From contig JAFGCG010000084.1 of assembly GCA_016932715.1 (NCBI GenBank), positions 1 through 64,000 on the forward strand: a stretch of 64,000 nucleotides of DNA, read 5' to 3'. A model generated the notes under the pieces. It searched no databases and was not told the DNA's origin. It saw nothing but the letters and a program-made list of their open reading frames with translations. Both the position numbers and the translations under genes were made by a program. Origin of the DNA: Anaerolineales bacterium. Its GTDB lineage: Bacteria > Chloroflexota > Anaerolineae > Anaerolineales > Villigracilaceae. Of this stretch, positions 34,622 to 64,000 are shown one piece after another. Every line of letters begins with the position of its first letter. Position 1 is the first letter of the stretch.

Positions 34622-36295
34622 TCACTCTTTCAACAGAAAATCGCCATCCTTCAGCAAGCCATCGAATATCGCTTCGATCGCTTTTGCATTCTCAGGCGAC
34701 AACTCTTCCAACCCAAACGACTTCAACCTCGTCTGCGTTGTACGGACGGAGGACCCGAGGAAATCGCCAAACGGCAGGGAGGTGCGGAACAACTGGTAAT
34801 ACAAAAATCGGCGCGCATTGCGTTTGAATTCCGGCGGCACTTCGATCTTTTCCGCCTCCAGAAACTCTTCCATCTTTCTTCTGACTTCATCCACCCTCTG
34901 CGGGAAGAACACGGTGGGATATTGCGTGAAGCGCGCCTTGCCCGCACACAATACGGCTGCGCCCATGATCGACGCCTCCAGGCCGATCGTCGAGTTGTAG
35001 ACCATCACGAACTTCGATCTCTGGATCAACTCATACGAACTCAAGGTTTCGTTCGGAGCGACGAAGATGACATTCGGCTCTTTATCTGCACCCGTTGCTT
35101 CGACCCAGGCTGCGACCGTCTCGCGGCTGACTTTGCGCACGCGCAGCTCGTCGGGGTGGGCGCGGATCACGAACAGCGTTTCCGGGTGAAGGCGGATGAC
35201 TTCCAGCGTCAGATCGAGCCAGTCGAACATGTCTTCAAAGACCGTGTTGGCATGCGGCTGGCTGGTATCGAAAATGACGTTGGTAAAGACCGGCACGATC
35301 TGCCTGAATGCCCCTGCCTTTTGCAGGAACGCCTCGTCGAGGCCCTTCATGTCCACCCAGAACCTGATGCCCGCCATGGTAAAGTCACCCTGGAAGCGTC
35401 TGGCGAGATAGGCATCGAGTTTTGCGTTTTGCTCCTCACTCAATTCGAATTCGTCAGGGATGCGGATGGGATACGCGGTCGCTTCGCCCTCGGTGAAGAA
35501 GGCAGTCGCGGGCTGCAATCCCACCTCGTGGGTGATCACGCGGATGCCGCGTTTTTGGGCGAGGTAGCGCGCGGTCGCTTCGGGGTAGAACTGCCCGTTG
35601 AACACGACGACCGCCCGCGGCTGAGTCTGATCGAGAACGTCCGCGAATTTGCGCGCCACATTCCACGCCGACAGGATATATTCCCGCAGAAGATAGCGCG
35701 TCGCTTCGTCGTCGATCAGGTGATGGATTCGCAAAATCCAGCGCAAGCCCGGGAGACACAGGGGGCCGAGAGGAATCCCCTGCCACTCGAAGGTCACGAG
35801 GCGTTGCAGGGGAAGGTTCTCAACGGCAGTCGCAAGTTGCGGATCACGGTCATAATCGAACCAGGTCACGTGCGTACCAGGAACGAGATGCGAGGGATCA
35901 GGGGACCGATTTACCTGTGTACCTGTATACCTGTGTATCTTTACACCTGTGTACAGGGTCTTTGATTGATAGATGCAGGATTTACACGGCGGCGCTTTGC
36001 GGACATTATCCCGGTTCGTCCCCAGCACGCAATGGCTCATCCCCGAGCGGCAGGCAAAGTAAGCAACGGGAATCCCCTTCAGCCGCAGCGCCCAGGAGGC
36101 CAGAAGATGAAACCCACTGTTCCAGGAGAGATCGTCGATTCCTGTGGAGGCTTTGAAGAAGAGGATCGGCGCGCCCGAAGGAACTGGCGCCTGGCGGGCG
36201 ACACGTTTCGCCAGGCGCGCGATCTTTAAATTATTGAGCCGGCGGACGAGTCCGCGTTGGATGCGTTGTTTGAAGAATTCGGAAAAACGATTCAT
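34622..36295 (-). CDS. Capsule/surface polysaccharide biosynthesis-like protein
   Basis: 557 aa; SWALRLKGIPVAYFACRSGMSHCVLGTNRD, ...FVIRAHPDELRV, NSTIGLEASIMGAAVLCAGKARFTQY. Confidence 0.7.
   Translation of the reverse strand: MNRFSEFFKQRIQRGLVRRLNNLKIARLAKRVARQAPVPSGAPILFFKASTGIDDLSWNSGFHLLASWALRLKGIPVAYFACRSGMSHCVLGTNRDNVRKAPPCKSCIYQSKTLYTGVKIHRYTGTQVNRSPDPSHLVPGTHVTWFDYDRDPQLATAVENLPLQRLVTFEWQGIPLGPLCLPGLRWILRIHHLIDDEATRYLLREYILSAWNVARKFADVLDQTQPRAVVVFNGQFYPEATARYLAQKRGIRVITHEVGLQPATAFFTEGEATAYPIRIPDEFELSEEQNAKLDAYLARRFQGDFTMAGIRFWVDMKGLDEAFLQKAGAFRQIVPVFTNVIFDTSQPHANTVFEDMFDWLDLTLEVIRLHPETLFVIRAHPDELRVRKVSRETVAAWVEATGADKEPNVIFVAPNETLSSYELIQRSKFVMVYNSTIGLEASIMGAAVLCAGKARFTQYPTVFFPQRVDEVRRKMEEFLEAEKIEVPPEFKRNARRFLYYQLFRTSLPFGDFLGSSVRTTQTRLKSFGLEELSPENAKAIEAIFDGLLKDGDFLLKE
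35913..35956. repeat. Degenerate 8-bp tandem repeat (ACCTGTGT)n inside a CDS
   Basis: acctgtgt|acctgtat|acctgtgt|atctttac|acctgtgt|acag; read as LYTGVKIHRYTGTQVN. Confidence 0.85.
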
Positions 36296-36361
36296 GTACG
36301 TTGATTTTTGCTGTGATTCGGTCTATACTTTGCAAAGCCCGCTTATTATACGGCATCCCCT

Positions 36362-37282
36362 ATGAACCGCATCGACCGTCTTTTTGCCATCCTGCTGTCC
36401 TTACAGCACAAGCGCCGCGTCCGCGCCCAGGATCTGGCGCAGCAGTTCGAGATCAGCAAACGTACGATCTACCGGGATCTATCCGCGTTGAACCAGATGG
36501 GGGTCCCGATCGCAGCACTGCCAGGTGAGGGATTCGAACTGGTGGAGGGTTATTATCTGCCGCCGCTGATGTTCACGGAAAACGAAGCACTCGCGCTGCT
36601 GCTCGGATCGCGCCTGCTCGCGCAGCAGGCAGCAGGTTCACTGACCCAAAGCGCAGACTCTGCCCTGGCAAAGCTCAAGGTCGCGTTGCCGGACCCGGTC
36701 CGGGCGCGCGCGGAAGCGCTGACGAATATCATTGGCTTTGTGACGCCCAAGGCGAAGTTCGATCTCGATGACCCGCAACTGCTGCTGATCCAAAATGCCA
36801 TTCGGGAAAAACGGGTGCTTCATCTGCGCTATCGCGGGTACAAGAAAGAGGAGGACACTGAACGTCAGGTCGAGCCGCATCAACTATTTTACGCGGACGG
36901 CGTCTGGTATCTCGAAGCGTATTGCCGGATGCGCAAAGGGATGCGGGATTTCCGTTTATCCCGCATGGAGAAGGTAACACCATGTCCCGAGACCTTCCGC
37001 AAAAAACGCACGGGCAAGGCCCAGACGCAGCCCATCATCGTCATTCAGATCCGTTTTGCACAAAATGCCGTGCGCTGGGTGCGTGAACAGCAGCATTACG
37101 GCTATCAACATGATGAACAGGAAACGGCGCAGGGCACGCTTATGGTCTATCACGTCAATGATGCGTCGGAGATCGTCCCGTGGATATTGGGCTGGGGCAC
37201 GAGCGCGGAAGTGCTTTCGCCCAGGGAACTTCGCCGGGCACTGCGCGAAACTGCGCTGAAACTCGCAAACTTGTTGACATAG
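36362..37282 (+). CDS. HTH + WYL domain transcriptional regulator (YafY-like)
   Basis: MNRIDRLFAILLSLQHKRRVRAQDLAQQFEISKRTIYRDLSALNQMGVPI; WYL region VLHLRYRGYKKE. Confidence 0.92.
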   Translation: MNRIDRLFAILLSLQHKRRVRAQDLAQQFEISKRTIYRDLSALNQMGVPIAALPGEGFELVEGYYLPPLMFTENEALALLLGSRLLAQQAAGSLTQSADSALAKLKVALPDPVRARAEALTNIIGFVTPKAKFDLDDPQLLLIQNAIREKRVLHLRYRGYKKEEDTERQVEPHQLFYADGVWYLEAYCRMRKGMRDFRLSRMEKVTPCPETFRKKRTGKAQTQPIIVIQIRFAQNAVRWVREQQHYGYQHDEQETAQGTLMVYHVNDASEIVPWILGWGTSAEVLSPRELRRALRETALKLANLLT

Positions 37283-37336
37283 GGTTGTCACATCTATTCT
37301 GTACAATCCGGGGAAATTAGACGTACAGGAGTGAAT

Positions 37337-37759
37337 ATGAAGATCAACAGTTTTTATCCGGTGATCCTGACAAAGGATGTTCCCCGTACAAAAGATTTCT
37401 ACACCAAACATTTCCCCTTCGAAATCACCTTCGATGCCGGCTGGTATGTGAGCCTGAAAGCCAAACAGGAATTCCCGTTCGAACTGGCGCTGCTGCAATC
37501 GGATCACGAGACCATTCCGCCCGGCTTTCGTTCTGCTGTGCAGGGAGGTCTGATCCTCAACTTCGAAGTGGAGAATGCCGATGCTGAATATGCCCGCCTC
37601 CAGGCTGCCGGTTTGCCCATTCATCTGGAGATCCGCTCGGAGGCGTTCGGGCAGCGTCACTTTATCACCGCCGATCCCGATGGGATCCTGATCGATGTCA
37701 TTCAGGTCATTCCCCCCTCAGAAGAATATGCAAAACAATACCTGGGAAGTGTGGTGTAG
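37337..37759 (+). CDS. VOC family (glyoxalase-like) protein
   Basis: [35 protein letters not shown]...[11 protein letters not shown]. Confidence 0.9.
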
Positions 37760-37763
37760 CTCG

Positions 37764-38885
37764 ATGGAAGAAAACTTTCAGGTCCGCAATATCTTCGACG
37801 AAGAGGCTGTCGATCAACTCGCTCAGCGCCTGAGGAAGGTCTGGCATGAATTTGACGCGCACGGATTTTGCCGATCCATTCATCCAAAGCTCAAAACATT
37901 GACGTTCAGCGAACGGAACAATTTGATCCGCGACACTCTCTGGGAATATCTTCCCAGAGAGTACCCGCACGCGCTCAGGATCATCCTGAATGCCCTGCCG
38001 CCCGAACTCCCGGACTGCGACATCTCCGGCTTCGGGAACTTTATCATCATGCCCCAGAATGATTATGTTGCGAAATATGGATTGGAACATTATGACCTTT
38101 CCATACAGGCGCTCTACCAAATGACAAAACGCTTTACCGCCGAGGGAGCCATCCGGCCGTTCCTTCAGAAATACCCCAGGAAGACGCTCGCCATCCTTTC
38201 GGAATGGGCGGAAGATGAAAATTGTCACGTCCGGCGCCTGGTCTCGGAAGGGACTCGGCCGCGCCTGCCCTGGGCGATGCAGTTGAAACAGTTCATCGAG
38301 GATCCAGGTCCTGTTTTGGACTTGCTCGAAACGCTGAAAACCGACCGTGTATTGATGGTACGCCGATCGGTTGCCAACAATCTCAATGACATTGCCAAGG
38401 ATCATCCAGACCTGGTTGTCAAAACTCTGGATAGGTGGAAGAGGATCGAGGACGAAGGCACCCAATGGTTGATCCGTCACGCGGCGCGCACACTGGTCAA
38501 GCAGGGGAACAAGGGCATTCTTACGATCCTGGGTTATTCTCCAAAAGTCGATATCCATGTTTCGAAGATCAAACTTGGTAAAGCCAGCCTGAAAATGGGA
38601 GAGAAACTTGATTTTGCTTTCGAGGTCAAATCAACATCCAAACAAATACAGACCCTGGTGATCGATTACATCGTCCATCATGTCAAAGCCAACGGGAAAC
38701 GGACACCCAAGGTCTTCAAGCTTGCCGATAAGACCCTCGAACCCGGCCAGGCGATAAAGATCTCAAAGGCACATTCATTCCGCCCCATCACCACGCGCAG
38801 ATACTATCCCGGCAGGCACGCGCTGGAGATCCAGGTGAATGGCACAAGCTATCAGAAGATCGATTTTGAGTTGAGAGTCCAGTGA
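37764..38885 (+). CDS. DNA alkylation repair (AlkD/HEAT-like) protein
   Basis: HEAT-like helices; WAEDENCHVRRLVSEGTRPRLPW, VLMVRRSVANNLNDIAKDHPDLV. Confidence 0.85.
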   Translation: MEENFQVRNIFDEEAVDQLAQRLRKVWHEFDAHGFCRSIHPKLKTLTFSERNNLIRDTLWEYLPREYPHALRIILNALPPELPDCDISGFGNFIIMPQNDYVAKYGLEHYDLSIQALYQMTKRFTAEGAIRPFLQKYPRKTLAILSEWAEDENCHVRRLVSEGTRPRLPWAMQLKQFIEDPGPVLDLLETLKTDRVLMVRRSVANNLNDIAKDHPDLVVKTLDRWKRIEDEGTQWLIRHAARTLVKQGNKGILTILGYSPKVDIHVSKIKLGKASLKMGEKLDFAFEVKSTSKQIQTLVIDYIVHHVKANGKRTPKVFKLADKTLEPGQAIKISKAHSFRPITTRRYYPGRHALEIQVNGTSYQKIDFELRVQ

Positions 38886-38906
38886 AGAAGCAAAGGCTTT
38901 TGTATT

Positions 38907-39542
38907 TCAATCCTGCAAGTGATCCGAGATCAGCCCGCTGATAAAAGGTTCCCGGCCATAAAATCTTACTTTGAAAATGCCGCCGTTTGGAATTTCAAAA
39001 ACTTTGTCGAACCAAATGAATTCCTGCATCAACTGGGGAGTAACTTCCCGCGGTCGCAGCAGCAGGGACAACAGGAACATGCGTGTAAACTGACCGTGCC
39101 CAAAGATCAAAACGAGTCCATCCTCGATCTGTTCGATGCGCCGGTACATGGCACAAACCCGGTGATATAGATCCGCGAACGATTCGGCACCCTCCCCGTG
39201 GATATAAAAAGGGTCGCATCTCTGCCAGTATTCTTCCACCAGGGGGCGCCGTTCCATACGCGATGTGTTTTTGCAAAGCGCCGGAGAGAGAAATGAGAAC
39301 TCCTGTATGTTCCATTCCTGGCGTTCGACTTGCGGAAATCGTTCCAGCGTGGGACGCGCCGTCTGTTGGGTCCGGAGATAGGGGGAGAAAACGATCAGAG
39401 AGGGAACGGCTGGGATGAGAGCACTGACTTTGGCAGCCTGCCGATGACCTTCTTCCGTCAGAGAAATGAGGTCCGGCATGCTGGTGACAAGCCCGGCATT
39501 CGCCTCGCTCTCGCCGTGTCGGATCAGCCAAACTTCTTTCAT
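38907..39542 (-). CDS. Histidine phosphatase family protein
   Basis: EVWLIRHGESEANAG; LVLIFGHGQFTRM. Confidence 0.9.
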   Translation of the reverse strand: MKEVWLIRHGESEANAGLVTSMPDLISLTEEGHRQAAKVSALIPAVPSLIVFSPYLRTQQTARPTLERFPQVERQEWNIQEFSFLSPALCKNTSRMERRPLVEEYWQRCDPFYIHGEGAESFADLYHRVCAMYRRIEQIEDGLVLIFGHGQFTRMFLLSLLLRPREVTPQLMQEFIWFDKVFEIPNGGIFKVRFYGREPFISGLISDHLQD

Positions 39543-39548
39543 GGATAC

Positions 39549-40403
39549 TTACCAATCATTGCTCTTTTCATAGGCGAGCTTTACCAGCAAATCACCGGCG
39601 ACATCCTTGAACAGCCGCTTGTGTTCCGCGGTGAAGTGATCCTTCCATCCGCCTGTTTTTCCGGAGCGGAATGTGTGACTCTTTTTCGGTTGAATGGCTT
39701 CCAGCAGGACAGCCAGTGCTTTCCCACGCGGCGTCGGGATTTTGTAGCCGGTCTTCTCCACTTCATCGAGCATGGCATGCAATGTATCCTCACGATGATC
39801 GATCAGGTCCTCGAAGCGAATGCAAAGGATATGTCTTTGCTCCAGCCACTGGAACACGCCTTCATATCTCTGCTTCACACTGACCATGTGCAGCCCGTCC
39901 TGGTCGATGCCGGTGATGGCGACTTTGAGCCGCGCGCCAAAATCGGGCAGGGACTTGTAATACGCGTGCATTCCATGTTCTTCGTGCATGTCGGTAGCGA
40001 AGAAGACCTGTGAGACCAGCATGTCGCGCGGGTCACGGTAAATAAAGTAATTCACACGCCCAGGCTTGCAAAGGAAGGCGACATTCTCAGGCGAAGCTTC
40101 CACATAGCCCCAGCCAATCGCCCCGCGTGGAACGCGCCGCAACTCATTCAGGACTTCCTCTTTCTGCTTTCTTCTCCCCTCTTTTTCTATCGTTCGAATC
40201 GGATCCGCCCCCACATACCTGTACGGCATGATCTGTGTAAAACCATTCAGGATTTGCAGCAATAAATGGGATCCGCTCTTGGGCTTGGAGTTGCCAAAGA
40301 CCGGCGGCGCCTCATCGAAGGACAATCGCTTCCAACGCGCCATTGCCTGCAGGGTTTTGCCTGCAGGCCGGAATACGCGGCGGAGTTGTTGGACAATTCT
40401 CAT
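39549..40403 (-). CDS. Sulfotransferase domain protein
   Basis: FGNSKPKSGSHLLLQIL (5'-PSB loop) and NYFIYRDPRDMLVSQV (3'-PB motif). Confidence 0.87.
   Translation of the reverse strand: MRIVQQLRRVFRPAGKTLQAMARWKRLSFDEAPPVFGNSKPKSGSHLLLQILNGFTQIMPYRYVGADPIRTIEKEGRRKQKEEVLNELRRVPRGAIGWGYVEASPENVAFLCKPGRVNYFIYRDPRDMLVSQVFFATDMHEEHGMHAYYKSLPDFGARLKVAITGIDQDGLHMVSVKQRYEGVFQWLEQRHILCIRFEDLIDHREDTLHAMLDEVEKTGYKIPTPRGKALAVLLEAIQPKKSHTFRSGKTGGWKDHFTAEHKRLFKDVAGDLLVKLAYEKSNDW
40157..40191. repeat. Degenerate 7-bp tandem array inside the sulfotransferase CDS
   Basis: cctcttt|ctgcttt|cttctcc|cctcttt|ttctatc; read as RTIEKEGRRKQKEEV. Confidence 0.65.
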
Positions 40404-40409
40404 AATTTT

Positions 40410-40488
40410 TGAACCGCGAAGGTCGCGAAGATCGCCAAGAAAATCCTGCTTTATCTTTGCGCCCTTGGCGTTCTTCGCGGTTTAGTTT
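40410..40488. repeat. ACCGCGAAG 9-bp-unit hairpin repeat
   Basis: gaaccgcgaaggtcgcgaagatcgccaag ... gcgcccttggcgttcttcgcggttt. Confidence 0.8.
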
Positions 40489-40497
40489 TCCGTATGG

Positions 40498-41382: not shown

Positions 41383-41415
41383 GTAGTCTCTCCAATTTTG
41401 AATTCATTGCCGGTT

Positions 41416-43035: not shown

Positions 43036-43065
43036 CTGAAATCCATCATGCTACAAAACAACTGC

Positions 43066-44283: not shown

Positions 44284-44288
44284 AATCA

Positions 44289-44340: not shown

Positions 44341-44344
44341 GAAT

Positions 44345-45172: not shown

Positions 45173-45204
45173 ACCTTCCTTGTTGCGCAAGCTGGCAGCT
45201 TGCG

Positions 45205-46815
45205 TTATGGTTTTGCCGTGTAGATCGAATCACCGGCGGACTTGTGAGCAAGATACAAGCCTTCGGTCAGTGCCGGCACGTCTCCCGCAACATTATCGCC
45301 GTCGTCGAAGAGCGCCAGCACAGCCTCGCCGTTGTTGATCCTCGTCCGCATCACAGCCAGTCCCTTCTCGAAATCCGCGCGCTCCTGAGCAGTCGCCGAG
45401 TCGAAGCGGTCGGGCAGGACGTAACAACCCCGGCCTGTGTACAGATAAACCGCAGCCGGTTCGTTGGTGAAGATCATGATGTCCGCAGGCAGTTCGCGCA
45501 GAAATGCCATTGCCTTCGAATCGTACCATTGGAAGGATGCGTATCCGAGCCCGCTCCTCGCCCAGGTATTGACCGTCATGGATTGTTTATAGATCGAAAC
45601 GCCGAGCAGCAGTACAGCCAGCACGATCGCAGCTTCACGGCGCCTGTTCCATAGCCAAACTCCGGACAGGACCAGCAGGATCAATAACGAAACCAGGACC
45701 GGCGAAAGGATACGCAGCTTGAACTTGGTCGCGGCGTCGAACATCAGCATGGATGAGATGATCGAGGCGAGATAGGCAAAGAGATACAAACCTGTGGTAA
45801 ATGAGATCACTTCCCGCGGTTCTGCCCCCCCTTTCCCACTCGCGCTGAGCGGAGCGCCAGCGGAGACGAAGCGGGGAGAGGGTCCGGGGGTGAGGGGTCT
45901 CGATATATATTTCCAGCCTTTCACAACAACCCAAACCAGCACCGCGCCCAGCACCAGGGCGATAAGTCCTTCGATCAAACCATCCTGTCTGACGATTGCC
46001 CGCCGCCAGGGTTCGATCGGGACAAAGAACTCCGAAAATACGCGCAGGCCCGGATCGATGTTCTCAGACGTGAGCGGATGCCACGCAAACGCACGGTTGG
46101 TGGCATTCCCGGCGACGAGCCGGTTACGGATGGACCAGCCAAGCGCCCAGGGAATCACACTGGCAAGAAAGATTCCCGCGCTGACCAGTCTTTTTTTCCA
46201 ATCAGTGTGCAGGATCAGGAGCGCGACGATGAACGCTGCCACCAGCGCCAGCCCGGCATAACGCGTCAGGTACGCCAGGCCAACAAAGATCCCGCAGGCG
46301 ACGAGCCACCACCAGTGATGAGCACGCTCGAAATACAGGTCGAACGCCCAGAAGGCAAGCAGGGAGAGAAAAATAAATAACGGCTCGCTCATCGTCACGG
46401 CATGGACCTGGAACATCTCGCCGCTCGCAGCGAACAGGGCTGCCAGGACCAGTCCCGCCATGAGCGAGCGGGTCATCCGCCAGCCCAGGATGCCAAGCAG
46501 CCCCGCATTCAAACCGAAGAGCAGGGCATTGACCCAGCGCGCCGCGCGCAGTGGGTCGATGCCGAAGAAGCCAAAGAACGCCAGGACGGAGGGAAAAGCG
46601 GGAGGGAAATGCGTCACAGGCTGGTTGGATGCCAGCCAGGCTTCGCGGTAACCATCCCCCGCCACCAGGCTGCGCGCGCCGGCGATATAGGCGATCGAGT
46701 CGTCAGATAAGCCAAGTCCATCGGGAGTCGTTTTGATGATCAGAACCATCCCGAGGAGGGCGATCAGCCCGAGGGCAAGAAAGGAAGCGAAGCGTGGGGA
46801 AACGCGAATGGTCAT
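45205..46815 (-). CDS. Multi-TM glycosyltransferase (ArnT/GT39-like)
   Basis: SIAYIAGARSLVAGDGYREAW...FPPAFPSVLAFFGFFGIDPLRAARWVNALLFGL; many TM helices. Confidence 0.82.
   Translation of the reverse strand: MTIRVSPRFASFLALGLIALLGMVLIIKTTPDGLGLSDDSIAYIAGARSLVAGDGYREAWLASNQPVTHFPPAFPSVLAFFGFFGIDPLRAARWVNALLFGLNAGLLGILGWRMTRSLMAGLVLAALFAASGEMFQVHAVTMSEPLFIFLSLLAFWAFDLYFERAHHWWWLVACGIFVGLAYLTRYAGLALVAAFIVALLILHTDWKKRLVSAGIFLASVIPWALGWSIRNRLVAGNATNRAFAWHPLTSENIDPGLRVFSEFFVPIEPWRRAIVRQDGLIEGLIALVLGAVLVWVVVKGWKYISRPLTPGPSPRFVSAGAPLSASGKGGAEPREVISFTTGLYLFAYLASIISSMLMFDAATKFKLRILSPVLVSLLILLVLSGVWLWNRRREAAIVLAVLLLGVSIYKQSMTVNTWARSGLGYASFQWYDSKAMAFLRELPADIMIFTNEPAAVYLYTGRGCYVLPDRFDSATAQERADFEKGLAVMRTRINNGEAVLALFDDGDNVAGDVPALTEGLYLAHKSAGDSIYTAKP
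45826..45903. repeat. Palindromic element in frame in the GT39-like gene
   Basis: Encodes RPLTPGPSPRFVSAGAPLSASGKGGAEPRE; combines the PxPSP-type and GCGCTGAGCGGAGCG elements. Confidence 0.8.
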
Positions 46816-46910: not shown

Positions 46911-46919
46911 ATTCCTGAA

Positions 46920-52441: not shown

Positions 52442-53473
52442 TCAAAGATCGACGCGGCGGCCCGAACGTTCTGACTCGTGGACAGCTTCCACCAGTCGCT
52501 GTACGCGCAAACCGTCGGCGAGCGTGCAGGTCGGTTCGGCATCCCCGCGGACAACCGCCACGAAATGTTTCATCTGTTCCAGGAACATGATATTGCGTTC
52601 CCACTCCGCCGACAGCGGATACACTTCCCAATCGCCCTCACCCCTTGCCCCTCTCCCGCCGGGAGAGGGGTTGGGGTGAGGGGAGGCACGATAAATTCGC
52701 GTCGCGCCATCCGCGAGGTCCCACTTGATGGTTCCCTGTGTGCCGGCAATGTCAAAAGTATGCACGGGAGGCTGCCGGTTAAAGTCCAGGTGCAGGCTGC
52801 CCAAAGCCCCGCCCGCAAAGCGCAGACCGATCTTGGCTGTGTCTTCCACATCCACTTCCAGGTTGCTGAGCTTGCCGGTGAATCCCCACACCGATGCCAC
52901 TTTGCCCACAAGCCACGGGAGGTAGTCGAGCGAGTGACACTGCGTCAGCACCACGCCGCCGCCCAGGTCGGCGCGCGCTGCGTATCCCTTGCGATAGTCC
53001 TCCCAGGGATGCCAGGCGGGCAGGTACTCTCCAAAGTGGACATGCGCGGAAAGTATGCGTCCGATCTCGCCTGCTTCGATCAACTGTTTTGCCCGGACCA
53101 GGCTCGGGTGAAAGCGAAACTGGAACGCGACCAGCACCTTTGCGCCGCTTTTGCGGACTGCCTCTTCCAGTTGATCCAGCCTTTCCGTGGAATGGGAGAT
53201 CGGTTTCTCGAGCAGGAGCGCGCAGCCTGTTTCCGCCGCGGGGATCGCCACGTCGAGGTGAAATGCCGTCGGGTTCGACACGATGACCGCATCCGGTTTA
53301 TGCTTCCTGAGTGCCTCCTGTACATCGGTTTCCAGAGGATAACCCGCCAGCTCGTCGTCGGGCAGCGTCGCTTTGCGCGTGCGAAGCAGGACGATATCCT
53401 TTTCCCCCAATGCGATTAAATTACGAAAATGTCTTCTTCCGATGGAGCCGAGACCGGCGATGAGGAATTTCAT
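52442..53473 (-). CDS. Gfo/Idh/MocA family oxidoreductase
   Basis: MKFLIAGLGSIGRRHFRNL...LLEKPISHS; RADLGGGVVLTQCHSLDYLPWL. Confidence 0.93.
   Translation of the reverse strand: MKFLIAGLGSIGRRHFRNLIALGEKDIVLLRTRKATLPDDELAGYPLETDVQEALRKHKPDAVIVSNPTAFHLDVAIPAAETGCALLLEKPISHSTERLDQLEEAVRKSGAKVLVAFQFRFHPSLVRAKQLIEAGEIGRILSAHVHFGEYLPAWHPWEDYRKGYAARADLGGGVVLTQCHSLDYLPWLVGKVASVWGFTGKLSNLEVDVEDTAKIGLRFAGGALGSLHLDFNRQPPVHTFDIAGTQGTIKWDLADGATRIYRASPHPNPSPGGRGARGEGDWEVYPLSAEWERNIMFLEQMKHFVAVVRGDAEPTCTLADGLRVQRLVEAVHESERSGRRVDL
52636..52681. repeat. GC-rich palindrome in frame in the Gfo/Idh/MocA gene
   Basis: CCTCACCCCTTGCCCCTCTCCC-GCC-GGGAGAGGGGTTGGGGTGAGG; read as SPHPNPSPGGRGARGE. Confidence 0.9.
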
Positions 53474-53483
53474 AGGAACCTTT

Positions 53484-53568
53484 TTTACCACGAAGGACAC
53501 GAAGACGCACTAAGGTGAATGCAAGAGCCTTTTCCTTTGTGATCCTTCGCGACCTTTGTGGTTAAAAA
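53484..53568. repeat. ACCACGAAGG 9-bp-unit hairpin repeat
   Basis: accacgaaggacacgaagacgcactaag ... gtgatccttcgcgacctttgtggttaaa. Confidence 0.8.
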
Positions 53569-53569
53569 A

Positions 53570-55056: not shown

Positions 55057-55063
55057 TTGATCG

Positions 55064-55513: not shown

Positions 55514-55580
55514 AATATCAAGCTGCCGCTGCCAGTGGAACCGGGATGGGCTTCCTCAAACTTTAGATGTCCGAATATTA

Positions 55581-56177: not shown

Positions 56178-56214
56178 TTTTTCTCCGTTAATAGTTACTT
56201 TTGCCAAAAAGGGT

Positions 56215-56285
56215 TTTGAACCGCGAAGCGCGCGAAGATCGCCAAGCGTTTTTTCTTTTCTTCGCGCTCTTAGCGGTTCGAATTT
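56215..56285. repeat. ACCGCGAAG 9-bp-unit hairpin repeat
   Basis: gaaccgcgaagcgcgcgaagatcgccaag ... cttcgcgctcttagcggttcg. Confidence 0.8.
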
Positions 56286-57769
56286 TCCAGGATCTTCAGA
56301 ATATACTCTGCCGTTCGCTTGCCGGAGGTCGCATCAGTGAAGGTGATTTCCTCTTCGATGAACTTCCTGCGTTCTGCTGCGTCGAGCGAGGGATTCTTGA
56401 GATAAAGGTTGATCACCTCGCAAAGTTCTTTTTCGCTGCCTGCGATGCGTCCCGCCTTCGCCTCGCGGAAGCGTTGGTGTGTGGGCCAATTGCCGATCTT
56501 CTTCAGCGAGAGCGAATATTTCTTTGGCTTGTTCCAGCCGCCCGGGACATCGATCACCGCGGCGACGATCGGCGTGTCGTGAACGGCGGTCTCGACGACC
56601 ATCGTGGAGTAGACCGTCACCAGCACATCCGAATGCGCCATCATGGAGGATTTCTCATCCATGTCTTCGCCGCCGTAGTAGCCAAGTGAGCCGCCCAACG
56701 CCACGGGCTTGACGACATGCACGTTGGGATACTGCTTTTCGAGGGCAAAAATCCGTTCGCGTTCCTCGGCGAAGATCTTGGGCTTATCCTGAAAATGGCT
56801 TGGGTGCAGGCGGATCAACAGCTGGGAAGGTTCAGCCAGCGCATCGGAGGAAACCAATTTCGCCAGTGCTTCCACGTTGGGATAGTTGGGGGCAAAGTGC
56901 ACAAACGAGCAGGCATAGGAAATCAACTTATAGTTGTGGTCGAGACCATACAGCTTGAAATAATCTTCCTTCGATAACAACCACTCTTTGCGAAAATATC
57001 CGTCATATGACGGAATACCGCCGATGTGCACGCGCTCAGGGTCCCAATCGGAACCGTAGATCAACTCATCCTTTTGCAGCTGAGACCAGCAGGTGGCGTA
57101 ATCCATCGAGGCGCCAGGAATGGAGTAACTGGACGGGTTGTCCCAACCGACGATCGCCGCCATGGTCGGGACGTTGTGCAGAGTCGCTTCACGGAGCAGA
57201 TAACGGTCGAGGCGCCAGCCGGCCGTCGAAGCGATGACAAGATCGGGCTGGTGCGAGGCGAATAGATCGGCATACAGGTTCGGGCGCGGGATGAAGCGAT
57301 TCTGCATCCGCACCAAAAATTTGCGGGCGAAGGCAAACGTCCGCAAAACGAGGATCGCCAGGGCCGCGGGAATCCAGATCCCCAGACGGAACTTCCACGA
57401 GTTCTCGACCCAGACTTCCCAGATGTGGCTGTCCATGGCTTCGGTGTTGATGCGCCACGAACCGCCGACACGCCGCAGGTAAACGAGCAGCCATTGCAGG
57501 CGCGGCTGGAACGTAGTGGCGAATTTATTCGCCTCCTTGAGGCGCAAACCTTCGAAGATAAGCCGCTTCGCCTGCGGGTCTCGAACGTCACTCGACCCTC
57601 CGCTCAGCGCGAGATCTCCAAATCGCTGCGCAATGCGATCCTTGGTTTCGTCGTCGGTGAGGATGACGACTTCCACGCCCGCCTCGAGCAGAGTCGGGAC
57701 GACGTCGCTTTGCAGGAAACAGATGATTGCCATGCCGTGGTCAGCGGAGATGAAGACTTTTTTGGACAT
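56270..57769 (-). CDS. Surface polysaccharide biosynthesis-like protein
   Basis: MSKKVFISADHGMAIICFLQSDVVPTLLEAGVEVVILTDDE...LLIRLHPSHFQDKPKIF...HSDVLVTVYSTMVVETAVHDTPIV. Confidence 0.75.
   Translation of the reverse strand: MSKKVFISADHGMAIICFLQSDVVPTLLEAGVEVVILTDDETKDRIAQRFGDLALSGGSSDVRDPQAKRLIFEGLRLKEANKFATTFQPRLQWLLVYLRRVGGSWRINTEAMDSHIWEVWVENSWKFRLGIWIPAALAILVLRTFAFARKFLVRMQNRFIPRPNLYADLFASHQPDLVIASTAGWRLDRYLLREATLHNVPTMAAIVGWDNPSSYSIPGASMDYATCWSQLQKDELIYGSDWDPERVHIGGIPSYDGYFRKEWLLSKEDYFKLYGLDHNYKLISYACSFVHFAPNYPNVEALAKLVSSDALAEPSQLLIRLHPSHFQDKPKIFAEERERIFALEKQYPNVHVVKPVALGGSLGYYGGEDMDEKSSMMAHSDVLVTVYSTMVVETAVHDTPIVAAVIDVPGGWNKPKKYSLSLKKIGNWPTHQRFREAKAGRIAGSEKELCEVINLYLKNPSLDAAERRKFIEEEITFTDATSGKRTAEYILKILENSNR
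57585..57615. repeat. CGCTGAGCGGAGGGTCGAGTGACG element in frame in a CDS
   Basis: Read as LALSGGSSDVRD within the gene 56270-57769; shared with 19370, 45839 and 63330. Confidence 0.7.
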
Positions 57770-57777
57770 GATACCTT

Positions 57778-57872
57778 GTCGAACCGCCAAGCCCTGCACT
57801 GAGCCTGTCGAAGTGACGCGAAGAACGCTAAGGGTTTCTTTACGAGCTTCGCGCTCTTTGCGGTTAAAAATT
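57778..57872. repeat. ACCGCCAAG/CTTTGCGGTT 9-bp-unit hairpin repeat with nested CTGAGCCTGTCGAAG
   Basis: gaaccgccaagccctgcactgagcctgtcgaagtgacgcgaagaacgctaag ... cttcgcgctctttgcggttaaa. Confidence 0.75.
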
Positions 57873-58818
57873 AAGAATAATACCAATTAAAAATTTTGTT
57901 ATACACCGCTAGTAACATCTTCTTAATTGGTCCCAGCTCCAACACACGCCGCGCCAAACCTTCTTTCTTCTTTCCTCTTTCTTTCCCTAACTCCCCACGT
58001 AGATACCCAAGTGTATTGGACATATTCATTGCCAGCGGATCGGAGACCATCAGGCGCAAGAGTCCTGCGTCGTTCATGCGCTTATCCAACTGGCGGACCT
58101 GGCCCATCGGCTTGTCCATGTCGAAGGGCAGGAACTGCTGGAGCGTGGACTTGTACGCCGTGAACTGCCAGTGCGAGGCGCCAGCCATGGCAGTCACGCC
58201 TTTGTAGATTATTTTCCAATCGCTGGTCTCTGCATACACTTTTTTGTTCTCTTCTTCCGTCTGCCCCAGCGAGAGATTGAATTCCAGGAAGCGTTCCCAG
58301 GGGATGAATTGCCCTTCTTCGAGTTTGGCGTTCGCGCGCGCCCAGCTGAGCGTGGTTTCGAAAAACTCAGGCGGCGTGCGGAAGGGCCGCGCGGTCACCA
58401 TGCCGACGTTCGGGAAGGTTTCGAGAATTTCCACCGAGCGCGAAAGCCAGCCTGGGGAGAATAAGACGTCGCTGTCGGTGTAGGCAATGATCTCGCCGGG
58501 CGCGCCCGCCAGCATGACGTTCCATGCGCCGCCCTTGCCCATGTTCTTTTCACAGAGGATCAAATACTGGATTCGCCCCTCTTCCTTTTCCCGGATAAGG
58601 TAGTCGCGCACTTCCGGGCAGGAGCCGTTGTCGAAGACCATCAGGTCGAACGGCAAGCCCGCATCCTTGCGCATGGATTCCAGGCATACTTTCAAGACAT
58701 CGAGCGTCTCGGTATAGAAACCACTCAGGAACGGGATGTAGTTCAGCAACGCGGCAGTGATCCGCTCCGGGCAGGCTACCTCTTTGACGAACTTGGCAGG
58801 GTTTTGGCCTTTTCTCAT
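57871..58818 (-). CDS. Glycosyltransferase family 2 protein
   Basis: LPFDLMVFDNGSCPEVRDYL...NMGKGGAWNVMLAGAPGEIIAYTDSDVLFSPGWL. Confidence 0.92.
   Translation of the reverse strand: MRKGQNPAKFVKEVACPERITAALLNYIPFLSGFYTETLDVLKVCLESMRKDAGLPFDLMVFDNGSCPEVRDYLIREKEEGRIQYLILCEKNMGKGGAWNVMLAGAPGEIIAYTDSDVLFSPGWLSRSVEILETFPNVGMVTARPFRTPPEFFETTLSWARANAKLEEGQFIPWERFLEFNLSLGQTEEENKKVYAETSDWKIIYKGVTAMAGASHWQFTAYKSTLQQFLPFDMDKPMGQVRQLDKRMNDAGLLRLMVSDPLAMNMSNTLGYLRGELGKERGKKKEGLARRVLELGPIKKMLLAVYNKIFNWYYS
57960..57987. repeat. 7-bp tandem array inside the GT2 CDS
   Basis: cttcttt|cttcttt|cctcttt|ctttccc; read as GKERGKKKE. Confidence 0.7.
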
Positions 58819-58946
58819 GTGGGTGTCAGGTTCCAGGTGTGAGGTGTCAGGTGTCAGGTTCCAAGTTTCAGGTCTGGGAATCGGGATTCGTTATTCGGGA
58901 GTCGAGCACGATTTCCGACTCCCGATTTCCGACTCCCGATTCCCGA
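58819..58946. repeat. Composite intergenic region made almost entirely of 7-bp tandem arrays
   Basis: gtgtcag|gttccag|gtgtgag|gtgtcag|gtgtcag|gttccaa|gtttcag then gggaatc|gggattc|gttattc|gggagtc then ttccgac|tcccgat|ttccgac|tcccgat|tcccgat. Confidence 0.9.
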
Positions 58947-59861
58947 TCATCGATTTCCAAATCTCTTTTTGATCCGCTTCTTCCATCGTTTCGGTCTGGC
59001 GACATTTTCGATCATATCTTCTGGCAGGAAGAAAAAGAGGGCACGCAGGAACAATTCCACGCGGCGCAGGAAGCGCAGAGACGACATCTTCGGGCGAACA
59101 AGTTTACCACCTGCGGCAAGCTGGTGCGTCGCATCCAAAACCGTGTAGCGGATATTTGCCTGCCCGCCCGCCAGACGGATGTTTTCATTCGTGTCAGGAT
59201 GTTCGTAATGTGGTTTCCCGCCGGGCAGGTGACTGTAATCGTGGTTTTGATGGATAACCATGACCGAGGGCGTGCAGTCGATCACGGGCCATTTTTCCAG
59301 GCGGGCTTTGTAGATCATCCAGTTGTCCCAGCCAGCGCGACCGATCGTGAAATCAGGGATGTCGGCGTAGCAGGATTTGGGGAAGAGGAAATAGTCGCTG
59401 CCCGCGGGACGATGGAGCGAGCCCTGACGATGGACGATGGACGATAGACGATTTTGCCAACCCTCGGTGAATTCGATGGGCTGAGTGACATCCAGATCCC
59501 AGCGCTGGCTGAGCAAAACGAATTCGTCTTTCCGTCCGAACACTCGCTTCGCCGCCTCGACGAAATCGGGCATCACGAGCATGTCCGCGTTGATGATGCA
59601 GAGCAGGTCGCTGTTGCTATTTTCGCGCGCCAGCTGAAACATGGATGAGATCAGCGGCGTGCCATTCTCATTGCACTTTACATTGGGAATGTGCTTCACG
59701 CCAAGCTCGCGCGCCGCTTCGGCGAGACCCGTCTCTTCGCCGAGCAAAATGACTTCCACATCGGGAAGCAGAGTCCAGGATTTGAGCGCGTTGCGCTGGA
59801 TCATCGCAATGTGCGGATCGGTGAAAGGTTTGGGGGCGGAGAAGAGAGTGATCAGGGGCAT
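58947..59861 (-). CDS. Glycosyltransferase-like protein
   Basis: PLITLFSAPKPFTDPHIAMIQRNALKSW...LLCIINADMLVMPDFVEAA. Confidence 0.78.
   Translation of the reverse strand: MPLITLFSAPKPFTDPHIAMIQRNALKSWTLLPDVEVILLGEETGLAEAARELGVKHIPNVKCNENGTPLISSMFQLARENSNSDLLCIINADMLVMPDFVEAAKRVFGRKDEFVLLSQRWDLDVTQPIEFTEGWQNRLSSIVHRQGSLHRPAGSDYFLFPKSCYADIPDFTIGRAGWDNWMIYKARLEKWPVIDCTPSVMVIHQNHDYSHLPGGKPHYEHPDTNENIRLAGGQANIRYTVLDATHQLAAGGKLVRPKMSSLRFLRRVELFLRALFFFLPEDMIENVARPKRWKKRIKKRFGNR
59426..59453. repeat. 7-bp tandem array (GACGATG)n inside a CDS
   Basis: gacgatg|gacgatg|gacgata|gacgatt; read as NRLSSIVHRQ. Confidence 0.9.
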
Positions 59862-59882
59862 CAGTATTCAGTAAGTCAGTGT

Positions 59883-60698
59883 TCAGTGGTCAGTGGCTCT
59901 TCTGTCAATATCTTTCAAAGTTTTGTGTTGCACGCCGGCGTTGATCTTCATCAACTGAGGCTCATCGTGCACCAAATCGAGCACTTCCTTCCAGGTGAAG
60001 TCGTCGCGTCCATCGAAACGATGGTAGACCTGGCGGATGAATTCCAGGTCTTCGGGAGTATCCACTGTCCAGCGGTAGTCGCCAAAGTCGGTGGTGTGAT
60101 GCAGCAGAGCGACGCGAAAGCCGCGCGGAGAGATACCAGTTTGCAGTGATCTGTTTTCAGTGATCAGTTCTACGCCTTCGTAGAAATACGGCATGGCATG
60201 CTCGCGCTGCTGTGGTTCCTTAGCCACCTTCCATGCCTTCTCCAAATTTTTGAACGTGCAGGCTTCCACGTCCAAGCCAATGGGATAGGTCCGGTGCCAG
60301 GGAAGCGGGAGACGATTGCAGACGAAGTCATACTCGTCATCGAGCAGGGTGTTGACGACATCGTCGATCAACGCCGGATCGATGACCGGGCAATCGGCGG
60401 TGACGCGGACAACCACATTCGCTTTGGCTTGTTTGGCGGCCTGGTAGTAACGATCGAGCACGTCGTAGAGGCTGCCGCGCGTGAACGGGATGCCGCTGAA
60501 GTCGCAGTATTCAGCGACGGGGTCGTCGGAGGGATCGGTCGTCGTGGCGAAGATCGTTTCGGCAACGGTGGCCGCTCGCGAGGTCCGAAGAAAGACGCGC
60601 CCCAGCATGGGCTGACCCGCGATGTCTGCCAGGATCTTTCCCGGCAGGCGGGAGGAGGACATGCGTCCCTGAATGATGGCAACAACGCGTGGTTTCAT
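59883..60698 (-). CDS. SpsF-like cytidylyltransferase family protein
   Basis: RVVAIIQGRMSSSRLPGKILADIAGQPMLGRVFLRTSRA...VRVTADCPVIDPALIDDVV. Confidence 0.92.
   Translation of the reverse strand: MKPRVVAIIQGRMSSSRLPGKILADIAGQPMLGRVFLRTSRAATVAETIFATTTDPSDDPVAEYCDFSGIPFTRGSLYDVLDRYYQAAKQAKANVVVRVTADCPVIDPALIDDVVNTLLDDEYDFVCNRLPLPWHRTYPIGLDVEACTFKNLEKAWKVAKEPQQREHAMPYFYEGVELITENRSLQTGISPRGFRVALLHHTTDFGDYRWTVDTPEDLEFIRQVYHRFDGRDDFTWKEVLDLVHDEPQLMKINAGVQHKTLKDIDRRATDH
60137..60169. repeat. 7-bp tandem array (CAGTGAT)n inside the SpsF-like CDS
   Basis: cagtttg|cagtgat|ctgtttt|cagtgat|cagttc; read as LITENRSLQTG. Confidence 0.88.
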
Positions 60699-62020
60699 GA
60701 AGCTTGCGCCTCTGAGGGGATCGGCAAGGGAGTCACGAATCCCTTTGCCCGGAATTTTTCAACATACTCTCGCACAACCCAATAATCAAGCCCGACCTGT
60801 TCGGCGATGTCGAAGATCGAATGCTGACCTTCGAAGCGCATCATGATCTTTTCGATCGCTCGGTTGAGCGCCCAGTTCTCGCGCCAGTCCACCCAGAGAC
60901 CGTATCCGCTGAGAAAGACCGGACCGCGGAAGGTCCGCCTCGGGATGTAGTTGCTGGCATAGATGCGGATGATCCGCTCGGCAACGTCCGCAGCCTCGAG
61001 CAGCATGTCCTCGTGGATGATGTCGAGATTGTCGTCGGTGGTGTGATACTCGTCGTAAGGAGCGCGGTTGAGCGAGATGCACGGCACGTTGACGCCGGGT
61101 CCGTTGACCACGCGCTCATCGTTGGCGGGCGCGGCAGCGAAGTCGCGTTCGTCATGATCGGCCTCGCGCAAAACATAATTCGTGATGCGGTCAAGAAGGT
61201 GATCGTGCTGGCGGGTGTGATGCCAGGCGATCCTGTTCTGATTGCCCGTCATCTCCAGGAAGATGCCGCCGCGCAGGTTCGGGATGAGTGACTCGTTGTG
61301 GGCGAGCCAGGCGATCGTGCCGATGGTCTCGGGCCCGAACCAAAAGCGGACGCTCATCGACCCAGCCGGTAGCGGGTTCTCGACGAGGCGCCGCGCCAAC
61401 CCGAGCGCGCTGACCACGCCCGCGCCGTCGTCATTGGCTTGCATCGGATGGCAGGTGTGCGCCTGTACAAGGAATTCACCCGCTGCGGGATTCGCTCCAC
61501 CTTCGGGATGAATGACCGCGCTGGCGACCTTGAATCCCAACTGCGGGTCAGCGATAAATTCCGATTTGATGACCGCGTGATATTTCTTATCGCGCGGAAG
61601 TTTGTCAAAGGTGTTCTTCGATAAACAGAACCCCCAATCGCGTTCGTAATATTTGAAAATCCACGGGATGGCATGCGGGCGTTTCTCATTGAAATACAAA
61701 TGCGGCTGGAGTTCTTCGAAGCCCAGGATTTTATCAATCGGCAAAGAATATGAAACGATGTGAAGCGGATTATCCTTGAAATCCACTACTCGCTCGCCGC
61801 CTTCAATTTCCAAATACGCCTCATGGAGGACGTACCGCTCCGGCACTTTCCACGTCCAGACGGGAGTCAGCGGCGCGTACGTCTCGATGGTGTAGTTCGC
61901 TGAGTCAGGCATGTACGAACCGACGATCTCCAGGGTTTTGTCCTGATCGTCGGAGGCGAGGGCGCGGTGTAGAGGCAGGAATTCTGCGAGGATGGATTTG
62001 AGGGAGGAGTAGGGTTTCAT
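60695..62020 (-). CDS. DUF4910 (M28-like aminopeptidase-fold) protein
   Basis: FLVQAHTCHPMQANDDGAGVVSALGLARRLVENPLPAGSMSVRFWFGPETIGTIAWLAHNE. Confidence 0.88.
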   Translation of the reverse strand: MKPYSSLKSILAEFLPLHRALASDDQDKTLEIVGSYMPDSANYTIETYAPLTPVWTWKVPERYVLHEAYLEIEGGERVVDFKDNPLHIVSYSLPIDKILGFEELQPHLYFNEKRPHAIPWIFKYYERDWGFCLSKNTFDKLPRDKKYHAVIKSEFIADPQLGFKVASAVIHPEGGANPAAGEFLVQAHTCHPMQANDDGAGVVSALGLARRLVENPLPAGSMSVRFWFGPETIGTIAWLAHNESLIPNLRGGIFLEMTGNQNRIAWHHTRQHDHLLDRITNYVLREADHDERDFAAAPANDERVVNGPGVNVPCISLNRAPYDEYHTTDDNLDIIHEDMLLEAADVAERIIRIYASNYIPRRTFRGPVFLSGYGLWVDWRENWALNRAIEKIMMRFEGQHSIFDIAEQVGLDYWVVREYVEKFRAKGFVTPLPIPSEAQAS

Positions 62021-62046
62021 AAAAGTTATTTCATGCAGTTGTTTTT

Positions 62047-62457
62047 CTAAGAAGGAATAGTTTTCAGAATTACACACATTCCCGCAAGTATCCGAATTTT
62101 GAAAGTAGGCTTTTGAAGCATGAAAAGAATATATTGTTGTGCAAAAGCATCCATCATATTTTCGTCGATTTTCAAGAAACCTTCTCGAAGCAATGATTTC
62201 CGTTCATTGATATCGCTCAATTCAAAGTCTATACCATCCCAACTAGTAGGTCCTTGAAAGTACCAGACGCCCTCAAATCCCATATAAAAAGCGACTTCAG
62301 GATCATCTAATTGTTTATGTCCTGCTATAACCAAAACACGATGACCTTGTGAGTAACTATAAATAACTGAGTGATACAAAGATGGATCACCTATATCGAA
62401 ATCAAGTTGATTATGAACTCGTGGTTGCTGAGGCTGCCAGATAGAGTTTGGATTCAT
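62047..62457 (-). CDS. Hypothetical protein, AT-rich gene
   Basis: 136 aa ORF; no family recognised; base composition differs from flanks. Confidence 0.5.
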   Translation of the reverse strand: MNPNSIWQPQQPRVHNQLDFDIGDPSLYHSVIYSYSQGHRVLVIAGHKQLDDPEVAFYMGFEGVWYFQGPTSWDGIDFELSDINERKSLLREGFLKIDENMMDAFAQQYILFMLQKPTFKIRILAGMCVILKTIPS

Positions 62458-62462
62458 AGGTT

Positions 62463-62512
62463 CTCCCTCACCCGTCCTTCGGACACCCTCTCCCGCAGGG
62501 AGAGGGGTACGG
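62463..62512. repeat. GC-rich palindromic element
   Basis: CCCTCACCCGTCCTTCGGACACCCTCTCCCGCAGGGAGAGGGG. Confidence 0.85.
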
Positions 62513-62542
62513 GCGCGGCGACTATTCTCTACTCACTACTCT

Positions 62543-63301
62543 CTATTCATCTTTCTTAATGTAATACAACAAATGCGGATTGCGCTTCATTTCGCGCGCG
62601 GTAAACTCATAGACCTCATTCGCTTTCATCAACTTGACATCCGCTTCGCCGATCTTCGCAACCTTGATGATCCCCGCTTTTTCCATCAACTCACCCATTG
62701 GATCGACCTCGGTGATGACGCCCTTGTCGATGTCGCGCACGAGCATCTCGAAGGTATCGGTGTACGTGTTGCCGTTCTCATCGGTCACCTCGCCGGTGAA
62801 CTGCTTCAGGAAACGATAGTCCACGCCTTCCATTTGCTCGATGTGATGGAAGAAGGTCATGCTGTTCGTATACGACAAGCCGATCACCATGATCTTGCCG
62901 TCCAGGTCACGCAGTTTGCCGAACACAGAATTCCGTTCATAGCTGCTCTTGTACCGCAGACTGCCAAGCATCTCGGCATGCTTGCCCAGAATCGCAAACG
63001 AATAAAAGGGATGGAAGACCCGTTTGGAGCGCGGATCCATACGCACTAATTCTGTCAGTGCGCCCATCTTCGAACGCGTCTTGCGCACATCCCAGGGTTT
63101 GCCCTGGGTGAAATCAAAATTGAAGGTTGGCATGATGAGCGTCCCCTCGGGGCCGAGAGCCGCCTCCAAAGCGCGGACTACCGTCTGCAGGCCGCCTTCT
63201 ACCTCGCCAAGCGACTTATAGGAACTGTGCACGAGCAATGTGTCGCCCTCCTGCACACCCAGGTCACGAAAGCCTTCCACCAGTGTTTCGAATGTCAGCA
63301 T
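62543..63301 (-). CDS. AAC(3) family N-acetyltransferase
   Basis: LGVQEGDTLLVHSSYKSLGEVEGGLQTVVRALEAALGPEGTLIMPTFNFDF. Confidence 0.92.
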   Translation of the reverse strand: MLTFETLVEGFRDLGVQEGDTLLVHSSYKSLGEVEGGLQTVVRALEAALGPEGTLIMPTFNFDFTQGKPWDVRKTRSKMGALTELVRMDPRSKRVFHPFYSFAILGKHAEMLGSLRYKSSYERNSVFGKLRDLDGKIMVIGLSYTNSMTFFHHIEQMEGVDYRFLKQFTGEVTDENGNTYTDTFEMLVRDIDKGVITEVDPMGELMEKAGIIKVAKIGEADVKLMKANEVYEFTAREMKRNPHLLYYIKKDE

Positions 63302-63320
63302 GTTGTCCTCCGAAACTTTC

Positions 63321-63432
63321 TTCGCGCTGAGCGGAGTGCCGTGCTCGTTGGCACGCAGTCGAAGCGCGTTAGAAGAATATGTTTGCTCCATTAACTGCGC
63401 TTCGTCTTCGCCTACGGCTCCGCTCAGCGCGA
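63321..63432. repeat. Two CTCCGCTCAGCGCGA-containing palindromic elements between genes
   Basis: cttcgcgctgagcggagtgcc...cgcagtcgaagcgc and ctgcgcttcgtcttcgcctacggctccgctcagcgcga. Confidence 0.7.
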
Positions 63433-64000
63433 TATAACCTTCTCATAAGCCTGCAGAAGTTTACCAAAGTTCTTCCGCCAGTCCGCTTTTTGCTCCGCGG
63501 TCTTACGCGCCGCCGCACCGATCTTCTTGAACGACCTGCGGTTTTTGATCGCATACAGGATTTTCTCTGCAAGATCATCCGCATCCCCATCCCGGAACAG
63601 CCAGCCGTTGACGCCGTCCTCGATCCATTCCCGGTTGCCCGGGATATCCGAAACCAGACAGGGCAGCCCGCTCGCCAGCGCTTCCATCAGTGAAACGGAT
63701 GAACCGTCCACGTGCGAAGGCGAGATGTAGAGGTCGGCCATGTGATACCAGCGCGGCAAGTCCTTCTGTCCGATCTGCCCGCCAAAATGGACGCGTTCCA
63801 GCAGTCCGCCCTTCATCAGGGTCTGGCGGATCTTCCCACCCTGCGAGCCTCCGCCCAACAGGATGAGATTCACGTTCGGCTTCATCGCCGCAACCTTGAC
63901 AAACGCCTTCGCCAGCACATCCACGCCATAGATCGCTTCCCAGGTGCGGTTGCAAAACAAAGTGATTTGCCGATTTGTTGATTTGCTGATTTGCCGATTT
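63424..64000 (-). CDS. Glycosyltransferase family 4 protein, 5' end beyond the window
   Basis: NLILLGGGSQGGKIRQTL...LPRWYHMADLYISPSHVDGSSVSLMEALASGLPCLVSDIPGNREWI; frame stays open to the window edge. Confidence 0.9.
   Translation of the reverse strand, partial: NRQISKSTNRQITLFCNRTWEAIYGVDVLAKAFVKVAAMKPNVNLILLGGGSQGGKIRQTLMKGGLLERVHFGGQIGQKDLPRWYHMADLYISPSHVDGSSVSLMEALASGLPCLVSDIPGNREWIEDGVNGWLFRDGDADDLAEKILYAIKNRRSFKKIGAAARKTAEQKADWRKNFGKLLQAYEKVISR
63964..64000. repeat. 8-bp tandem array (GATTTGCC/TGATTTGC) inside the GT4 CDS
   Basis: gatttgc|cgatttgt|tgatttgc|tgatttgc|cgattt; read as NRQISKSTNRQIT. Confidence 0.85.

Follow-up and report, generated by a model that had tools for sequence, protein, structure and literature searches.

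Short palindromes and tandem arrays are read in frame in genes of an Anaerolineales genome, and unrelated repeats occupy one enzyme loop across the order

Repeats in open reading frames of the window

The DNA analyzed here (the window) comprises 64,000 nt of a metagenome-assembled genome (4.94 Mb, 94.7% complete, 195 contigs) and carries a cluster of glycan-biosynthesis genes in which short repeats are read in frame. An earlier sequence-only reading had listed nine coding sequences (CDS) of this cluster with such repeats, and all nine stretches were found at their positions inside open reading frames (ORFs) and were read through. Eight were clear repeats, while the stretch at 40157-40191 was weak and fell below the cut-off score of 40 used for tandem arrays in Tandem Repeats Finder (TRF). 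Orthologues of the nine sites were taken from about 40 relatives and aligned as protein and as DNA. The sites are as follows.

35876..35944, minus strand: repeat-derived 23-aa insertion VKIHRYTGTQVNRSPDPSHLVPG in the capsule-like gene 34622-36295, overlapping the ACAGGTA 8-bp array 35913-35956
45826..45897, minus strand: compound palindrome insertion in the GT39-like (PMT) gene 45205-46815, encoding LTPGPSPRFVSAGAPLSASGKGGA
52634..52684, minus strand: palindrome CCTCACCCCAACCCCTCTCCCGGCGGGAGAGGGGCAAGGGGTGAGG inserted in the Gfo/Idh/MocA gene 52442-53500, encoding SPHPNPSPGGRGARGEG
57572..57616, minus strand: 15-aa insertion DLALSGGSSDVRDPQ that includes one member of the CTCGCGCTGAGCGGAG family, within the PF04464-like gene 56270-57886
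60132..60176, minus strand: insertion of about 15 aa in the SpsF-like cytidylyltransferase gene 59883-60698, containing a 7-bp array of the ACTGATC type
40157..40191, minus strand: weak pyrimidine-rich stretch in the sulfotransferase gene 39549-40403, gap-free, no insertion
57960..57987, minus strand: CTTCTTT array giving a lysine-rich stretch in the GT2 gene 57871-58818, no longer or shorter than in most relatives, no insertion
59426..59453, minus strand: GACGATG array in gene 58947-59861, residues gap-free against relatives, no insertion
63964..64000, minus strand: GATTTGCC 8-bp array coding for NRQISKSTNRQI in a GT4 inter-domain linker, running beyond the end of the window

The sequence-only reading had taken the repeat peptides for lineage-specific insertions. 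The orthologue alignments bore this out at five of the nine sites (35913, 45826, 52636, 57585 and 60137), and these five also showed that genes receive in-frame insertions from several unrelated repeat families, as had been proposed. The proteins at 40157, 57960 and 59426 aligned to their orthologues without gaps, which ruled out these three arrays as insertions. The GT4 linker holding the 63964 array has a similar length in solved relatives.

The insertions differed in structure and age. At 35913 the loops of relatives varied in their make-up, and L213 and the outgroups had no loop. In the 45826 element a CTTCGTCTCCGCTGGCGCTCCGCTCAGCGCGAG palindrome is nested within the loop of a CCCTCACCCC..GGG palindrome; the single-contig relative G012, of which 400 kb were examined, and its clade carry PLTPRPSPTGKGKQG at this site, which was read as a probable decayed form of the outer palindrome. 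The 52636 insertion was missing in several relatives and was shorter in L148 and L160. At the 57585 site of gene 56270 this genome has a palindrome, L030 a CCGTCCA array and L029 a GTAACTC array, and most other relatives were empty. The 60137 insertion is old, being common to the whole bacterial family and lacking in order-level relatives. A separate loop of the GT2 gene 57871, at residue 205, contained palindromes in three relatives.

Periodicity of 7 bp over conserved codons, without a change in length, was seen at 40157-40191 and 59426-59453 and at L244:4493-5347, L037, L039 and L025, and in several relatives; the G012 orthologue, for instance, has a period-7 array on the codons matching 40157-40191. 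Judged from the alignments, arrays of this kind look as if they overwrite codons instead of inserting new ones. The sequence-only reading had also seen no equivalent in the genes at 15-34 kb, and an automatic scan detected no repeat in any of the 24 genes in the first half of the window, where only 0.86 repeat-bearing genes were expected.

The loop of the capsule-like enzyme

The capsule-like protein had no Pfam match at an E value of 1e-5, and the structures nearest to its model in Foldseek were UDP-GlcNAc 2-epimerases and the N-terminal domain of KpsC, with low TM-scores. The loop at 35876-35944 was surveyed in 81 species of Anaerolineales (Chloroflexota), this genome and 80 further ones, as the segment between the anchors QS..LY and V.WF. 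It was empty in 16 species and filled in 65. Nearly all filled loops consisted of recognisable repeats, which belonged to at least 10 unrelated types, with 6 loops unclassified. The 8-bp units included ACAGGTA, AAACGTT and CCAACCTT, and those of the 7-bp class AAGGTCA, AAGGTT, CGTCCA and CGATTCCC. Palindromes with a GTAG tag filled the loop in six species (L260, L263, L266, L268, L283 and L288). The remaining fillings were GGAGTC palindromes (three species), a GTCGGATTG palindrome and CCGGTTATCC motifs, and in two species a CTGAGC..GAAGGG palindrome was embedded in an array. When loops with at least six extra residues were compared with the windows of their own gene, 39 of 64 exceeded the 99th percentile for periodicity or palindromy. 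The longest loop, in L334, had 65 aa between the anchors and consisted of CAGTTATCCGGTT-like units followed by the same units inverted.

The gene tree was built with the loop columns left out, and on it the repeat type switched 42 to 48 times among the 81 tips, compared with a mean of 57 changes (minimum 51) after shuffling of the type labels. The type is therefore inherited to some extent and turns over very fast; the exact type counts are approximate, since the labels rest on our own short motif rules. In species pairs with 87-90% identical proteins the flanks were similar and the loop DNA was unrelated.

A second loop, near residue 168 of the same gene, contained a full palindrome of the GTCATTGCGAGG..CCTCGCAATGAC type in four species of the 80-genome set; the GTCATTGCGAGG element of the relatives is about 100 bp long. 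The loci with the residue-168 palindrome were L213, L267, L302, L312 and L319, with about 30-35 aa read in frame, and the first loop was empty in three of the four species. In L214, from another family, the second loop contained a CACAATT array. An apparent large insertion in L318 was rejected, as a second similar segment lies downstream.

AlphaFold models were built on shallow orthologue alignments (17-18 rows). In the Gfo/Idh/MocA model the repeat peptide (residues 275-288) lies between two strands with pLDDT values below 50, and only one other internal stretch, the five residues 160-164, was below this value. The repeat peptide is thus modelled as a low-confidence, probably disordered hairpin loop, in line with the loop position that had been suggested for the insertions. 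In the capsule-like model residues 126-137 of the inserted loop had pLDDT values below 50, as did a longer unrelated stretch (303-318).

Repeats across the genome and their host genes

Repeats were counted in a 1.46-Mb sample of the same genome, window included, in which 1198 genes were predicted with our own codon-model gene finder (84% coding). TRF found 18 period-7 arrays in CDS and 43 in intergenic DNA (0.0147 versus 0.181 per kb), so that CDS were about 12-fold poorer in them. Run gene by gene over 1.22 Mb of CDS, TRF found 17 period-7 arrays compared with 0.1 in codon-shuffled genes, and a second, simpler array detector gave the same picture. The repeats in genes are real, in frame and far above chance.

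A scan for long palindromes missed the short dispersed families, which were recovered by self-BLAST. The CTCTCCC..GGGAGAG family, to which the 52636 palindrome belongs, had 8 copies in the sample, 6 of them within CDS, and the CTCGCGC..GCTCAGCGCGAG family of the 45826 site had 22 copies, 8 of them within CDS. CDS are thus a minor but real home for the arrays and a substantial one for both main palindrome families. Intergenic copies in the sample included 9 GTAG palindromes and 13 ACAGGTA arrays. The GTAG palindrome had 32 exact matches in the whole genome (G000), the control pattern none, and was present in 14 of 121 genomes of the order. Y1 transposase (Y1_Tnp) genes were present. The one in L048 was rejected as a partner of repetitive extragenic palindromes, as its flanks carry other hairpins. 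Pairs of occupied and empty sites were inspected for target-site duplications, but their junctions were too diverged to define one.

Repeats were carried by 43 of the 1198 genes. As many as 38 of 1148 genes outside the window did so, mostly housekeeping or metabolic genes, and in-gene repeats are therefore not confined to the glycan cluster, as the sequence-only reading had implied. The hosts include gyrase A (L017:2604-5243), glycyl-tRNA synthetase (L021:4614-7664), chorismate synthase (L119:18057-19253), shikimate dehydrogenase, ribonucleotide reductase (L089:13318-15873) and TlyA (L067:5862-6674), and further aldehyde oxidases, hydrogenase subunits and histidine kinases. Compared with solved homologues, chorismate synthase, TlyA and an alpha-glucosidase had in-frame insertions of about 8-13 residues.

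The comparison of glycan genes with the rest, which had been proposed as a check, did not indicate specificity for glycan genes. With glycosyltransferase positions assigned by Pfam, repeats occurred outside the window in 2 of 13 glycosyltransferase genes versus 36 of 1135 others (P=0.066), and in 6 of 84 genes within 5 kb of a glycosyltransferase versus 32 of 1064 (P=0.053). A mild excess in or near these genes is possible, the figures being suggestive. A first enrichment test (P=0.004) was dropped as biased, because some of its seed genes had been picked for carrying repeats. Among 82 orthologue pairs from this genome and G012, in which glycan clusters are over-represented, there were 35 indels of 5 aa or more, of which 7 were associated with repeats, and 5 of the 7 lay in glycan genes. 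Variation in surface-glycan enzymes was seen between species, the level at which all comparisons were made, and the term allelic used for it earlier is not supported.

Relation to known repeat systems

In-frame repeats have a precedent in the Rickettsia palindromic elements (RPE; Ogata 2000, 2002), which, as cited in PMC10969869 and PMC2229807, are palindromes in unrelated, often conserved genes. The comparison with them made by the sequence-only reading was apt. As in the RPE described there, palindromic repeats lie in frame in genes and copies of the same families lie in intergenic DNA, and the palindromes at 45826, 52636 and 57585 are in-frame insertions missing from orthologues. RPE are 105-150 bp long and encode a family-conserved peptide, whereas the elements of the window are about 35-75 bp long and use several frames (LTPxPSP, PHPNPSPGGRGARGEG and SPLPEGEGAGVRA). 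In contrast to RPE, unrelated families and tandem arrays share sites here, one loop was refilled over 65 species, and the hosts are Anaerolineales and not obligate intracellular bacteria.

Intragenic repetitive extragenic palindromes (REP) are known from many proteins, and recB of two Xanthomonas was hit near the same site (PMC3733652). The capsule-loop palindrome of six species resembles the GTAG/CGTC-tagged REP of that study in that it starts with GTAG, forms a hairpin and is dispersed, and its number of exact matches in this genome is likewise high. The two main palindrome families of the window lack the GTAG tag, however, and the recurrence observed here covers dozens of species and includes repeats that are not REP. 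The TAACTGA heptamer repeats of Beggiatoaceae and cyanobacteria are mostly intergenic, and some are read through, mainly at protein edges (PMC4679880). The arrays described here are likewise dispersed 7-bp direct repeats with a mainly intergenic excess and some copies in ORFs, but they comprise many units instead of one and form internal loop insertions in conserved enzymes. Bacterial miniature inverted-repeat transposable elements (MITE) such as Correia, ERIC and YPAL (PMC2229807, PMC10969869) are also small non-autonomous repeats fused in frame; a terminal TA, a target-site duplication and a family-wide ORF were not established for the elements studied here.

In-frame palindromes, intragenic REP and read-through heptamers were thus known already; what is new is a single loop refilled by unrelated repeats, including tandem arrays. 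A literature search that reached few subscription journals yielded no report in which many unrelated repeats refill one protein loop again and again within an order. In-frame selfish repeats have so far been described mostly from Rickettsia or as scattered intragenic REP. In the capsule-like loop 81 parallel outcomes can be compared, among them empty relatives, type-switched sister species and several kinds of repeat, and it is therefore directly testable whether selfish DNA contributes protein segments or is only tolerated. A part of the unexplained insertions of Chloroflexota proteins, and peptides like LTPxPSPxxGEG, should be regarded as translated repeats and not as domains.

Interpretation

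The explanation favored here, with a probability of about 0.72, is that dispersed repeats insert everywhere and that only in-frame copies in tolerant loops survive. Short dispersed repeats would be gained steadily by this genome and its relatives. Some are palindromes (about 35-130 bp) that resemble REP or MITE and are in part GTAG-tagged, and the others are tandem arrays of 7-8 bp units. These would land or arise at any place, the surviving array copies being mostly intergenic, and copies in genes would be kept only if their net length is a multiple of three, they contain no stop codon and they lie in a disordered surface loop or linker. Because few loops would tolerate inserts, the same loops would be hit and refilled repeatedly by the repeats active in each lineage. 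A transposase of the Y1 or REP-associated tyrosine transposase (RAYT) type may move the palindromes, and arrays may arise by slippage or template switching. Random insertion with purifying selection would be the cause, and the effect on the enzymes would be near-neutral. The observations behind this explanation are in-frame lineage-specific insertion, several unrelated types on the same codons, dispersed families, hosts other than glycan genes and, in two models, a loop of low confidence. Y1/RAYT mobility is a link that we infer; the 32 genome matches, the Y1 genes and the GTAG tag of the palindromes in six capsule-like loops are consistent with it.

Several points weigh against this explanation. 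Three of the nine arrays are no insertions, and simple insertion does not account for 7-bp periodicity on conserved codons, which recurs in relatives. Types switch so often that more than tolerance may be needed; the loop content may be actively exchanged with other repeats, or species may recombine within the gene. In the species-level comparisons no insertion event was caught and no target-site duplication was defined; the action of the Y1 genes on the palindromes is an assumption. Refilled hotspots were documented in glycan genes, the genes for which orthologue DNA was compared.

A tentative view, which we consider rather doubtful, is that certain loops of Anaerolineales enzymes serve as landing pads throughout the order. 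What such a loop contains would be replaced about as often as species split, through exchange with the repeat families of the genome. Unrelated mobile palindromes and tandem arrays would then supply one protein segment and, if this held at the strain level, protein variation would be generated continually by repeat turnover instead of by phase variation or point mutation.

Adaptive diversification, in which repeats are kept since new loop peptides change capsule or glycan structure, is unlikely. The window cluster does hold five repeat-bearing genes versus 0.9 expected (P=0.002, chosen post hoc), the excess in or near glycosyltransferase genes points in the same direction, and in G012 5 of 8 in-gene 7-bp arrays are in glycan-cluster genes, although these regions were selected as orthologous. 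Nevertheless, the hosts are mainly housekeeping and metabolic genes, several cluster hosts belong to families of cytosolic enzymes that activate sugars or act on nucleotide sugars, and the same loop is filled by unrelated peptides with no common function apparent and lacks an insert in 16 species. Growth of arrays in place by slippage from near-repetitive native codons, with nothing moving, is less probable again. It would suit the arrays at 40157, 57960 and 59426, and the empty capsule-like allele of L213 and L267 (TATACAGGTACACG) is already like one 8-bp unit. The same loops are, however, filled by palindromes from several families that are also dispersed elsewhere, close pairs change between unrelated units, and codon-shuffled genes yielded almost none of the period-7 arrays seen. 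Because full-length dispersed palindromes were found at the loops, slippage is at most part of the array story.

That a transposase or repair process favors a DNA motif or structure at these codons is very unlikely, even though dozens of species use the same codons, Y1 transposase genes are present and REP-associated tyrosine transposases exist that act on single-stranded DNA (PMC3733652). The site is common to unrelated repeat classes including tandem arrays, the flanking DNA varies among species, and the sites match low-confidence loops of the models. An artefact of assembly or gene calling would be conceivable as the genomes are mostly metagenome assemblies, but it is extremely improbable. 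The pattern repeats in many independent assemblies and in the single contig of G012 (intact loops, one species), the frames are open, and the flanking residues are conserved with 70-90% identity on either side.

Other repeats in the window

Intergenic repeats of the kinds found in genes were also located in the window, with no strand assigned.

58818..58958, no strand: intergenic 7/14-bp arrays of the kind found in genes, between the GT2 gene and gene 58947
7375..7437, no strand: intergenic CTCTACT 7-bp array of a dispersed array family
15695..15735, no strand: intergenic CTCTACT 7-bp array of the same family as that at 7375..7437

The contig starts inside a dispersed element of about 90 bp (window positions 1-86). 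This element was counted 84 times in the 1.46-Mb sample, with few copies outside intergenic DNA; the copies listed sit at contig ends, and the element probably causes the break in the assembly. A large internal tandem repeat of 306 bp at 11741-12533 belongs to a TPR-like gene and represents an ordinary repeat protein.

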